NCBI RefSeq assembly: GCF_002283365.1
Contig: NZ_MQWD01000001.1
Span: forward strand, 3,195,749 to 3,259,748
Source of the DNA: Rubrivirga marina
Lineage (GTDB): Bacteria > Bacteroidota > Rhodothermia > Rhodothermales > Rubricoccaceae
Reading direction: 5' to 3'
Length of the DNA stretch: 64,000 bases
This document shows positions 26,982 to 32,429 of this stretch, in pieces. Each line of letters starts with the position of its first letter. The stretch's first letter is position 1. Below the pieces are notes generated by a model that searched no databases, was not told where the DNA came from, and saw nothing but the letters and a program-made list of their open reading frames with translations. The translations under genes were made by a program, and so were the position numbers.

Positions 26982-28256
26982 CTACTGGGCGACGCCGCTG
27001 CGCACGGCGATGAGGCGGTCGGTGAAGCGGCGCGGGTCGGCGAGGTAGACGTAGGCCGTGAAGAGCGAGGCCGCGCTGAGGCCGGGCGTCTCGACGGCGA
27101 CGCCCTGGTAGCCATAAACGTAGCGCCCCTGCTTGAGGAGGAGCGTGGCCGCGTAGCGACCCTCCGCCTCGACCCACGTCATCTCGGACTCCGGCGTCCG
27201 CTGCCAGCCGTTGAACGAGCCGACGACGTAGACGCGGCGCGGCGACTGGCGACTCTGCGGGGGGACGTACTGGAACTTGACCTCGACGTACTGCCCGTCG
27301 ACGTCCGCCCGACCGACGTCGCGGTAGACGCTCCCGACGAGGGGGATAGAGGCGATGACGGCCTGACGGACGTCGCCGCCGAACTCGGCGTAGTCGAGGT
27401 CGAGGAGAGCCGTCGGCGGCGTCGTCGTCCGGTCGACCTCGAGCACCTCAGTGTTGACGCCGAGGAAGCCGAGGTCGAGTTCGAACAGGGCCTGCTGTTC
27501 CGGGAAGGCGGCCGTCCGCGGGAGGTAGAACTGGTAGAGGGCGAGGTCGACGAGCGACGGCTCGGGCGCGCAGCGGAAGTCGTCGGTCCGCCCGTTCCGC
27601 CCGAAGCAGACGGTGTAGCGCGAGCCGTCGAACTCCTGGAGCCGAGGATCCGGCCGGAGCCGGGCCGCGGGCTGGACGGCGAACCCGACCGACCCGTCCT
27701 GCACCGTCGCGCCGAATGCGAGTTCGACCTGGGCCAGCTGCTCGCTGACGAAGAACGGCACGTCGAACAGGAGCCGGCCGTCGCCGTCCCGAACGATGGC
27801 CCGGTAGTTCCCGCTGACCTTGAACCCGATGTTGGCGTTCGGGAAGTCGTAGCTGTAGTGGACGTACGGGACCTGGACCGACGACGTCGAGCGCTCGTAG
27901 TCGAGGATCTGGTCGCTCTCAAAGCCTGTGAGGTACTCGCTCGGCAGGAGCTGCGACCGCCCCTGCCGGTCGGTGTGCACGAACCGGATCTCGAGCGGCG
28001 CGCCAGCCTCTTGCCCCACGAGGTCGAACTCGAGCCGGAGCGACTGCTGGGCGTCCAGCGTCACGACCGGGAGCGTCGCCTCGTCGCCCGTCTGGTGGAG
28101 TTGGAGCGCGCCGACGCGCGGGTCCGAGATGATCGTCTCGCCGACCCGGGCCGGCGGCGCGGTCTCGGTCGTCCCCGACGTCGCCGCCTCCTCAGGGAGC
28201 GCGCAGCCCGCCACGACGAACAGGGCGGCGAGCGTCAGAACACGGGGCGAGAGCAT
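26982..28256 (-). CDS. DUF5103-family lipoprotein
   Basis: A 424-aa protein starting MLSPRVLTLAALFVVAGCAL, a signal peptide with lipobox VVAGC. The DUF5103 family in Bacteroidota has this architecture: an N-terminal beta domain (LRLEFDLVGQEAGAPLEIRF, YVHYSYDFPNANIGFKVSGNY) and a C-terminal region that includes an E-set/CBM48-like YVVGSFNGWQRTPE segment. The function is unknown, likely envelope or outer-membrane associated. Its first 65 nt overlap the end of the membrane HEXXH gene in another frame. Both frames are well supported, which implies coupling. Confidence 0.85.
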   Translation of the reverse strand: MLSPRVLTLAALFVVAGCALPEEAATSGTTETAPPARVGETIISDPRVGALQLHQTGDEATLPVVTLDAQQSLRLEFDLVGQEAGAPLEIRFVHTDRQGRSQLLPSEYLTGFESDQILDYERSTSSVQVPYVHYSYDFPNANIGFKVSGNYRAIVRDGDGRLLFDVPFFVSEQLAQVELAFGATVQDGSVGFAVQPAARLRPDPRLQEFDGSRYTVCFGRNGRTDDFRCAPEPSLVDLALYQFYLPRTAAFPEQQALFELDLGFLGVNTEVLEVDRTTTPPTALLDLDYAEFGGDVRQAVIASIPLVGSVYRDVGRADVDGQYVEVKFQYVPPQSRQSPRRVYVVGSFNGWQRTPESEMTWVEAEGRYAATLLLKQGRYVYGYQGVAVETPGLSAASLFTAYVYLADPRRFTDRLIAVRSGVAQ

Positions 28257-30492: not shown

Positions 30493-31351
30493 CGAGGGCG
30501 AGCACCTCGCGCAGTTGGACGTCCGCGCTCACGTCCGCGTCGTAGGCGACCGCCGCGTCGACACGGACGTTGAGGAGGCTGTTCACCTTTAGCAGCAGGA
30601 CGGTCTCGAACAGCACGTCCGGGGCCTGGTTGGCCACCTGCCCGAACGCCTGGAACATCGACAGACGCGATTGGAGGCGGACGTTGTCCATGATCTTGCG
30701 GTCGATGCCGGCTTCCCCATCCACCCCCGCCTGGACGCGGACGGGCTGGTCGAGCGCGTTGCCGTGCACGGGCCGAAGCCGCTCGATCCCCACGACCGTC
30801 TCTTTCAGTGCCACCCCCATCCGGAGAAAGGCCCCGCCACCGGGCCGGACGGCGAGGCCGAGGGACTGGCTCATGACGAGCGGCGCGAACGCGTCGGACA
30901 CCTTGAGTTCCTCGCCCGGAACGACGACGAGCGACGGGTACTCCTCGGCCGTCGGCGTGTAGTCGAAGCCAGGGGCGAACTGGGTACGGAACAGGACCGC
31001 CAGCGCCGGCCGGAAGACCCGTTCGGATATCACCTCGGCGGACGCCTCGTATCGCGCCACGTCGATGGCCTTGCGGACGTCAAGCGTGTCTTGCTTCTGG
31101 ACACCGATCACCAGCCGGAGGGTCTGCTCCGTCAGGAAGTCGCCCACCACGCGGTCGAACGTCCCATCGACCGACGCCGTCCCGGAGAGCGCGTCGACGC
31201 CGCCCTCCTGCCAGTTCGAGAACGAGGCCTGGTTGCCCGCAAGGGTGGCCACGAGCGAGGACCGCCAGCCGTCGGCGGCGGTGAGCGTGTCGGCCTCCTG
31301 AGCGCGGGGCGCGAGGGCGACCAGGAGCGCGAGGAGCGGGACGAGGCGCAT
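30470..31351 (-). CDS. DUF3078-family protein
   Basis: A 293-aa exported protein, signal peptide MRLVPLLALLVALAPRAQEA. The hallmark of DUF3078 is visible right after it: WRSSLVATLAGNQASFSNWQ followed by EGGVDALSG. The rest is an alternating beta pattern (LRLVIGVQKQDT, LAVLFRTQFAPGFDY), as expected of an outer-membrane beta-barrel-like fold. The family is common in Bacteroidota and of unknown function. It is the first gene of the envelope run and its end overlaps the HEXXH gene by 23 bp. Confidence 0.88.
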   Translation of the reverse strand: MRLVPLLALLVALAPRAQEADTLTAADGWRSSLVATLAGNQASFSNWQEGGVDALSGTASVDGTFDRVVGDFLTEQTLRLVIGVQKQDTLDVRKAIDVARYEASAEVISERVFRPALAVLFRTQFAPGFDYTPTAEEYPSLVVVPGEELKVSDAFAPLVMSQSLGLAVRPGGGAFLRMGVALKETVVGIERLRPVHGNALDQPVRVQAGVDGEAGIDRKIMDNVRLQSRLSMFQAFGQVANQAPDVLFETVLLLKVNSLLNVRVDAAVAYDADVSADVQLREVLALGVSVPIL

Positions 31352-31375
31352 GAGCGGGCGGGCCGAAATACGAGA

Positions 31376-31406
31376 CGAGGCCGCATCACCGGGTGACGCG
31401 GCCTCG
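31376..31406 (-). terminator. Terminator hairpin between the Hc1-like gene and the DUF3078 gene
   Basis: CGAGGCCGC (31376-31384) pairs with GCGGCCTCG (31398-31406), extended inside by TCACC/GGTGA. It lies 28 bp past the stop of the Hc1-like gene on the minus strand and ahead of the DUF3078 start. It is followed by TCTCGTATTTC in the minus direction, a weak T-rich run. Confidence 0.65.
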
Positions 31407-31433
31407 TGACGTCATGACGTCAGGACGCAAGAG

Positions 31434-31613
31434 TTAGTCCGCGTTCTTCTTGTCCTGGACGTCGACGCGGATGTCCTGAGCGAGCTGCTTGAGCTCCTGC
31501 ATGCCCTTACGGACACGGGTGCCGGCAGCCTTGTTGCCCTTATCGTAGAACTTGCTGAAGTCGTCCTCCAGGGAAGCGACGTGGTCCTGGAGCTTGCTGA
31601 ACATGTTGGCCAT
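31434..31613 (-). CDS. Hc1-like histone H1-type nucleoid protein
   Basis: A 59-aa gene. It reads MANMFSKLQDHVASLEDDFS, then KFYDKGNKAAGTRVRKGMQE, then LKQLAQDIRVDVQDKKNAD. This is the small Bacteroidota form of the Hc1/histone H1-like family. The characteristic AGTRVRKGMQELKQLAQ.IR helix is fully present, with an amphipathic first helix and a basic centre. The family binds DNA and helps compact the nucleoid. It stands as a single-gene unit with a promoter (31688-31718), a 5'-leader hairpin and a terminator. Its codons are unusually AT-tolerant (AAG, GAT, CGT, GCT) relative to neighbours, as expected of a highly expressed gene. Confidence 0.93.
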   Translation of the reverse strand: MANMFSKLQDHVASLEDDFSKFYDKGNKAAGTRVRKGMQELKQLAQDIRVDVQDKKNAD

Positions 31614-31644
31614 GATGTGGCAGAAGGGTTGGGGAAATGTGGGT

Positions 31645-31678
31645 GCGGGCCAGCCGGCAACCGGCTTCCTGGGCCCGC
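31645..31678 (-). other. Stable stem-loop at the 5' end of the Hc1-like mRNA
   Basis: GCGGGCCA (31645-31652) can pair with the region ending GGGCCCGC (31671-31678), with GCCGG/CCGGC pairing inside. The predicted transcription start near 31681 is only a few bases before it, so the mRNA would begin with this hairpin. Such 5' stems protect abundant mRNAs from decay in other bacteria. Confidence 0.5.
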
Positions 31679-31687
31679 CAGGGCGGT

Positions 31688-31718
31688 CAACATAGCCCCG
31701 CAGGGCGGGCCGATCAAC
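31688..31718 (-). promoter_or_regulatory. Putative Bacteroidota-type promoter of the Hc1-like gene (TTG-N20-TATGTTGA)
   Basis: On the minus strand TTG (31716-31718) is followed after 20 nt by TATGTTGA (31688-31695). This fits the -33 TTTG/TTG and -7 TAnnTTTG arrangement. It is the only place in the window where I find both boxes at the right distance. It lies in the 159-bp gap between the degenerate kinase gene and the Hc1-like gene. Confidence 0.5.
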
Positions 31719-31772
31719 CCGAAGCCGCCCAAATTGAGCCGTATGGGGCGATTCGAAGAGACCGCGAAGTAG

Positions 31773-32429
31773 TCAACCCGTTGTCACTATGGCGGATGAC
31801 CCCTCGGCTTGGCGGAGCGTCACGCGGAGACCGGCGCGCGCGCGGCCTGGAACCGCTACCGCTCGGGCCGCCGCCGAGGGGTCTGGGAACGCCTCCGCCA
31901 GCGTCTCGACAGCTCCCCCGCCCTCGACCGACCTCGTGGTGAGAACGGCCAGCGGCACCCCGAGCGCTTCCGCGAGGACGCCCGACGACTCGGCGGCGTC
32001 CACCTCCGCCGGCCCCTCCGCTCCTTCCACCAGGGCGGCCACGACCGCCACGACGCCTTGCCCGACGAGGTCACCGAGCCACCCCGTACGCCCCGCGACG
32101 AGCGCGCCGTTCGGGCTCTTCAGGAGACCCCGATCCGCGCCCATCACGCGGATGGCAGACACGCCCGCCTCGTTGAGCTCGTGGACGATCTCGCGGTTGA
32201 GGTCCCGGATCGCTCGCTCGATGGTCTCGCGGCTCTCCGCGTCGTCCGTCTGCCACACGCCGTCGACCGCCGTCGGCATCCGGCCCAGCGACTCGAGCGC
32301 GCGCTCCCCCCGCTCGCCGCTGCCGTGGACGAGGACGAGCCCGCCTTCCCGCGCGGCCAGGTCCTGAGCGAGTCCCGGCACGAACAGCGGGTCGCCGAGG
32401 AAGTAGGGGTCGAGGTAGACGACGAGCAT
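31773..32429 (-). CDS. Degenerate amino-acid kinase-fold protein (acetylglutamate kinase-like)
   Basis: A 218-aa protein that aligns by eye with the N-terminal and middle parts of acetylglutamate kinase: LVLVHGSGERGERALESLG, then VDGVWQTDDAESRETIERAI, then VHELNEAGVSAIRVMGADRG. The phosphate-binding start, normally KLGG with the catalytic lysine, reads MLVVYLDPYFLGDP here, so the lysine and glycines are gone. It is also shorter than the usual 250-300 aa. It is therefore probably not an active kinase; a regulatory or ligand-binding role is possible. ATG 32429 is used because the conserved part starts there; the frame upstream to 32777 covers a repeat element. Confidence 0.7.
   Translation of the reverse strand: MLVVYLDPYFLGDPLFVPGLAQDLAAREGGLVLVHGSGERGERALESLGRMPTAVDGVWQTDDAESRETIERAIRDLNREIVHELNEAGVSAIRVMGADRGLLKSPNGALVAGRTGWLGDLVGQGVVAVVAALVEGAEGPAEVDAAESSGVLAEALGVPLAVLTTRSVEGGGAVETLAEAFPDPSAAARAVAVPGRARAGLRVTLRQAEGSSAIVTTG

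Follow-up and report, generated by a model that had tools for sequence, protein, structure and literature searches.

Does a 59-codon open reading frame on the minus strand of the Rubrivirga marina genome form a complete transcription unit of its own, and is the hairpin predicted at the 5′ end of its message meaningful? We addressed this question in a window of 64,000 nucleotides (assembly GCF_002283365.1, contig NZ_MQWD01000001.1, positions 3,195,749 to 3,259,748 of the forward strand), comparing the gene, hereafter hc1, with its orthologs in the order Rhodothermales. The original prediction, made from the letters alone, had described a stand-alone unit for a small Hc1-like histone. The open reading frame, promoter, 5′ hairpin and 3′ terminator hairpin are all present and correctly placed:

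31712..31717, minus strand: −35 hexamer TTGATC, in the same register as the TTGACA of the order relatives
31689..31694, minus strand: −10 hexamer TATGTT, 17 nt from the −35 hexamer
31681..31682, minus strand: predicted transcription start, placed from promoter spacing about 7 nt after the −10 hexamer
31645..31678, minus strand: 5′ leader hairpin of 13 pairs with a 5-nt bulge and a 3-nt loop, its pairing kept in three of the four loci of the genus
31614..31644, minus strand: linker before the start codon, with little predicted structure and no Shine-Dalgarno motif
31434..31613, minus strand: coding sequence of hc1 (59 aa, Pfam PF07432), modeled as two helices with a mean pLDDT of 95.3
31375..31407, minus strand: intrinsic-terminator-like hairpin of 15 pairs with a weak T-tract

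This confirms the observation of a complete transcription unit with hc1 as its one gene, which encodes a short Hc1 of the Bacteroidota type. The open reading frame runs from an ATG to a TAA, and its product matches the Hc1 family with 88.4 bits (curated cut-off 23.5) over profile positions 3–56 of 57. It is the sole PF07432 match returned by the profile search of the source genome (4.98 Mb, 11 contigs). A match is present in 92 of the 114 Rhodothermales genomes, and short Hc1 proteins are also found in other Bacteroidota; among named relatives, the nearest Hc1 found was that of Rubrivirga sp. SW42617_bin_3, at 93% identity. Downstream on the same strand, the following gene encodes a DUF3078 protein, and the same-strand open reading frame upstream (31776–32429) has no Pfam match. 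Elsewhere in the window, positions 26982–28256 encode a Type 9 secretion plug-like protein (PF17116).

A total of 95 orthologous loci of the order were extracted and their upstream regions scored for TTGACA-N17-TANNTTTG, with dinucleotide shuffles as the control. A conserved promoter, TTGACA-N17-TANNTT, reached a score of 9 or more in 74/95 loci vs 3.3% of shuffles, and the groups without such a score were mainly the families f14, f15 and f9 and the genus of the window. All four loci of the genus, the window's own included, score 8. Since 13.8% of shuffles reach this value, the window promoter is weak if judged alone, and a sigma-70 scan called no promoter at the window hc1, where 8 of 12 consensus bases match. 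The TATGTTGA element with the 17-nt spacer is present in all four loci of the genus, and both the register and the leader length (68 nt) agree with those of the relatives. The TTG-N20-TATGTTGA promoter of the original prediction thus exists as TTGATC-N17-TATGTT, is supported by the register conserved in the order and appears from its sequence to be a decayed copy of the order consensus.

A count of the motif by itself across the genome was discarded as a test of the promoter, as TTG-N18..21-TATGTTG occurred at 4 places vs 2 for the reversed control. The full CTTGACA-N17-TANNTT is rare, with 2 to 8 occurrences per genome in five relatives (the genome of the window is not among them); of these 26 places four are hc1, and the reversed pattern gave one. 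The multi-copy Hc1 loci of family f9, three in one genome (G038: L021, L039, and L040) and two in another (G016: L027 and L081), all have promoter scores below 9 (5/5). Among the matches listed by our literature search, there was no usable mapping of Rhodothermus transcription starts.

At the other end of the unit, the predicted terminator hairpin is confirmed. The window hairpin has a z of −5.0 (0/200 shuffles), passes a terminator scan and shows the G+C-rich stem followed by a T-tract, weak here, of an intrinsic terminator. Across the order, mean z was lowest, −3.81, at 20 nt past the stop codon (n = 92), and in 81/95 loci the best of the six 3′ windows tried had a z no higher than −2.5. A lax terminator regular expression was useless because, besides 82/92 real flanks, it accepted 181/276 shuffles and 44/94 upstream controls, and fold z was used instead. 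As a separate observation, a stem of the form GGCYRYGY...RCRYRGCC is present in 38/95 hc1 3′ flanks (e.g., L007, L012, and L018) and in 0/95 upstream controls; the window’s genus lacks it at all four loci. A genome-wide repeat of the form AGGCYRYGY...RCRYRGCCT was rejected, with 8 places vs 11 for the reversed control (6 genomes, per strand).

In the window, three unpaired nucleotides precede the leader stem if transcription starts at 31681. We rejected judging this stem from the window alone, where it is not significant over 82 nt: the 82-nt leader folds at −29.1 kcal/mol with a z of −0.76, and 40/200 shuffles fold as well. With dinucleotide shuffles, the window z was −0.15 at 30 nt, a length that cuts the stem, −1.84 at 36, −2.41 at 40, −1.85 at 45, −2.13 at 50, and −1.44 at 60 nt. 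Rfam gave no match at gathering score in 20 loci; its one match in the window region 31300–31800 was at chance level (E 0.96), far below gathering score. It is the comparison with relatives in the order that places the stem beyond chance, and on that comparison the stem-loop proposed at 31645–31678 holds.

Fold z was computed in 45-nt windows at 12 offsets, with the start set 7 nt after the −10 hexamer, for 80 of the 95 loci; the 15 loci without a convincing promoter were omitted, and all starts are predicted ones. Mean z was −0.89 at the predicted start (n = 80) vs −0.36 to +0.48 at the eleven other offsets, and it was positive from +20 to +65. When loci were averaged in 14 groups, corresponding to families with the window’s genus set apart from its own family, the group mean at the predicted start was −1.04, with 12/14 groups negative (Wilcoxon p 0.0017). 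At −80 nt, 12/14 groups were negative too, but with a mean of −0.26 and a p of 0.09. The start-site mean lay between −0.81 and −1.30 for lengths of 30–50 nt with either kind of shuffle, and at about −0.5 for 60 nt. Furthermore, the leader past the hairpin is less structured than its shuffles (group mean +0.47 at +30, p 0.0031).

The signal is unevenly distributed among the families. A z of −1 or lower was reached by 36/80 hc1 loci, and by 33/57 when f13 was left out. Mean z was −2.18 in the window’s genus (n = 4), −1.98 in f3, the presumed Rhodothermus group (n = 7), −2.20 in f10 (n = 3), and −1.32 in f5 (n = 24). Little signal was seen in f2 (−0.19, n = 5) or in the remaining genera of the window’s family (−0.39, n = 3), and no signal was found in f13 (−0.02, n = 23), f4 (+0.34, n = 3), or f9 (+0.09, n = 1). 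The first paired base lies at a median of 6 nt from the predicted start; this distance is no evidence for the hairpin, because f13, which lacks the signal, gives 6 as well.

We also considered sites outside hc1 and outside the order. Non-hc1 sites with the same promoter consensus (n = 21) had a mean z of −0.16, and 3/21 were at −1 or lower vs 36/80 for hc1 (Fisher p 0.012, uncorrected for relatedness). One locus, L188 in genome G010, holds a gene that looks by sequence like that of ribosomal protein L13, with the same strong promoter and a hairpin of its own (z −3.48); a leader hairpin behind such a promoter is therefore not unique to hc1. The Hc1 loci taken as outside the order showed no signal (mean z +0.11; 37/56 with a candidate promoter), in a set where promoter calls are uncertain and a few loci may belong to the order.

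The stem covaries in the Rhodothermus group, where a sequence-only alignment had a 9-pair stem paired in 84.1% of cells vs 23.8–50.9% for slid controls; five of the nine pairs were changed on both sides, and only 0 to 2 of 500 shuffles reached the five measures. Three of the four loci of the window’s genus had 97.4% of cells paired vs 35.1–48.7% when slid, with two double changes; here the shuffle control was not beaten, as 47/500 shuffles (double-change count) and 111/500 reached the observed values. The fourth locus, L011, has a different predicted arrangement in the same place. In f5, covariation by fixed alignment (20/24 loci) was weak and was not retained: 75.7% of cells were paired, a value reached by 116/500 shuffles, and the stem is mostly invariant, with one double-changed pair. 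Since the sequences of stem and loop vary from family to family, it seems to be the shape and the place of the hairpin that are conserved.

On balance, we favor the reading that hc1 forms a single-gene unit with strong transcription, that its 5′ hairpin stabilizes the mRNA, and that its product is a small nucleic-acid-associated protein; we consider it somewhat more probable than its negation. Protection of the mRNA, a known kind of function, is the most likely role of the hairpin. Placed within a few nucleotides of the predicted 5′ end and away from the start codon, it would shield the message from 5′-end-dependent decay, while the terminator hairpin would protect the 3′ end. With both ends protected, the short, strongly transcribed message could persist, and the open linker would leave hc1 free to be translated. 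Stem-loops and terminator hairpins have been described as protective features (PMC7509114; PMC3997798). The stabilized mRNA of the original prediction finds partial support: the predicted position of the hairpin suits a stabilizing stem, and the hairpin is kept in many families, but the fold signal is absent in f13, f4, and f9.

That absence, together with the modest z over the 82-nt leader and the genus shuffle control that was not beaten, could be taken to mean that the window hairpin is a meaningless by-product of high G+C. We find this quite improbable, since the fold signal is position-specific over 14 groups, the stem covaries in the Rhodothermus group, and pairing in three of the four genus loci is far above slid controls. 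If the palindrome acted as DNA, as a repressor operator, its place right after the predicted start and just downstream of the promoter would be suitable; however, the Rhodothermus alignment retains G-U pairs (7/53 paired cells) and the window stem has its one-sided 5-nt bulge, both of which fit RNA pairing, and the arm sequences are not common to the families, which makes an operator very unlikely. A transcription attenuator or pause element seems just as improbable: five or more T in the eight bases past the first helix occur in 9/78 leaders with a predicted helix, including L038 and L025 with strong stems, but no such run is found in the other 69, the window’s included.

A further possibility is that the hairpin is a control site, bound by Hc1, another RNA-binding protein, or a small RNA, which switches translation or decay. 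The persistence of the stem while its sequence changes would agree with this, and in Chlamydia the small RNA IhtA interacts with the message of hctA and represses its translation (PMC3469542); chlamydial Hc1 has been reported to interact with RNA. Against it, stem and loop sequences vary between families, as suits a generic barrier more than a site for specific binding, the 20 loci gave no Rfam match, and the linker and start codon are open rather than sequestered. We therefore regard a control site as rather unlikely, and mRNA protection remains our preferred reading of the hairpin.

The codons of hc1 had been presented as a mark of high expression, on account of GAT, CGT, and GCT. These codons are indeed present, with GCT for 3/6 alanines, CGT for 2/3 arginines, and GAT for 1/8 aspartates. 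The link to expression did not stand, because the ribosomal-protein genes (22 of them, chosen by eye from the L14 cluster) avoid GCT (2% of Ala; background 3%) and rarely use CGT (7% of Arg; background 6%). Overall, the codon choice of hc1 still resembles that of ribosomal-protein genes, at 0.038 log units per codon within their range of −0.027 to 0.088, but 12/141 background windows reach the hc1 value. That GCT makes up half of the Ala codons of hc1, vs 2–3% in the compared genes, is a peculiarity of the gene. At the translation start, a Shine-Dalgarno motif was found in none of the four hc1 loci of the window’s genus, in 7/7 loci of f3, in 22/24 of f5, and in 68/95 overall.

The AlphaFold model of the protein is a two-helix hairpin (residues 4–25 and 28–58). 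Over 58 sequences, L8, D18, F22, A30, G31, R33, R35, and R49 are invariant, and the turn GNKAAGTRxRK is highly conserved in Hc1. No solved homolog had a meaningful E-value by sequence (best 1.1), and Foldseek returned no match at E 0.001 or better, with generic helical bundles and hairpins at the top. The protein scored 21.8 bits against the chlamydial HctA equivalog NF051889 (cut-off 100), matching positions 7–47 of the 121-position model, its N-terminal region. In HctA, the N-terminus serves dimerization and the lysine-rich C-terminus DNA binding (PMC2848022). The limited match and the net charge of +1 (pI 8.0) point to an Hc1 without a lysine-rich DNA-binding tail; in its 59 residues, we found no basic C-terminal domain as in histone H1-like proteins. 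Net charge among the 95 orthologs ranges from −4 to +6. The label "chromatin protein" is therefore an extrapolation. Hc1 of the window belongs to a known family, in which it is unexceptional, and its histone label is doubtful. It is plausible that the helical hairpin dimerizes and contacts nucleic acid through its basic turn; Hc1 would then act as a small nucleic-acid-associated protein and, unlike chlamydial HctA, would not compact DNA by a lysine-rich tail.

Relatives of Hc1 with 56–63% identity are also encoded in three very large uncultured phage records (462–642 kb):

LR756500.1:253598-253759: phage Hc1 relative
LR745206.1:567427-567555: phage Hc1 relative
LR756502.1:529665-529787: phage Hc1 relative

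In IMG/VR, 132/151 candidate stretches encode Hc1 relatives, some of them probably host DNA; one such stretch (L218) coincides with the cellular contig of L156 and is probably host DNA. The presence of PF07432 in large phages is already published (PMC12619734).

What is new is that many families within the order maintain the hairpin at this one small gene. In the open-access collection searched, the term PF07432 appears in a single paper, though short Hc1 is common in the order, and our literature search found no study of bacteroidotal Hc1 among the titles of the matches listed. A leader hairpin kept in structure gives a handle on whether these cells devote effort to keeping the Hc1 message long-lived, and it could lead to what Hc1 does without the chlamydial DNA-binding tail. 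A more speculative and unlikely idea is that the hairpin is an undescribed Rhodothermales cis-acting RNA element that sets the level of Hc1, possibly through binding by Hc1 itself. If this were true, the tail-less Hc1 would work mainly as a dimer associated with RNA or the nucleoid, rather than as a histone that compacts DNA.

Compared with known systems, the protein is no different at family level from the short Bacteroidota type of PF07432. With chlamydial HctA (NF051889) it shares the weak N-terminal match, and it differs in having no lysine-rich C-terminal domain. What the IhtA–hctA pair of Chlamydia has in common with hc1 is a possible post-transcriptional control of an Hc1-family message. 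There is also a likeness to the 5′-terminal stabilizing stem-loops of the ompA, papA, and aprE mRNAs: the shared traits are a stem near the (in hc1, predicted) 5′ end and an open region before the start codon, and the difference is that the hc1 stem is kept in many families on one gene.
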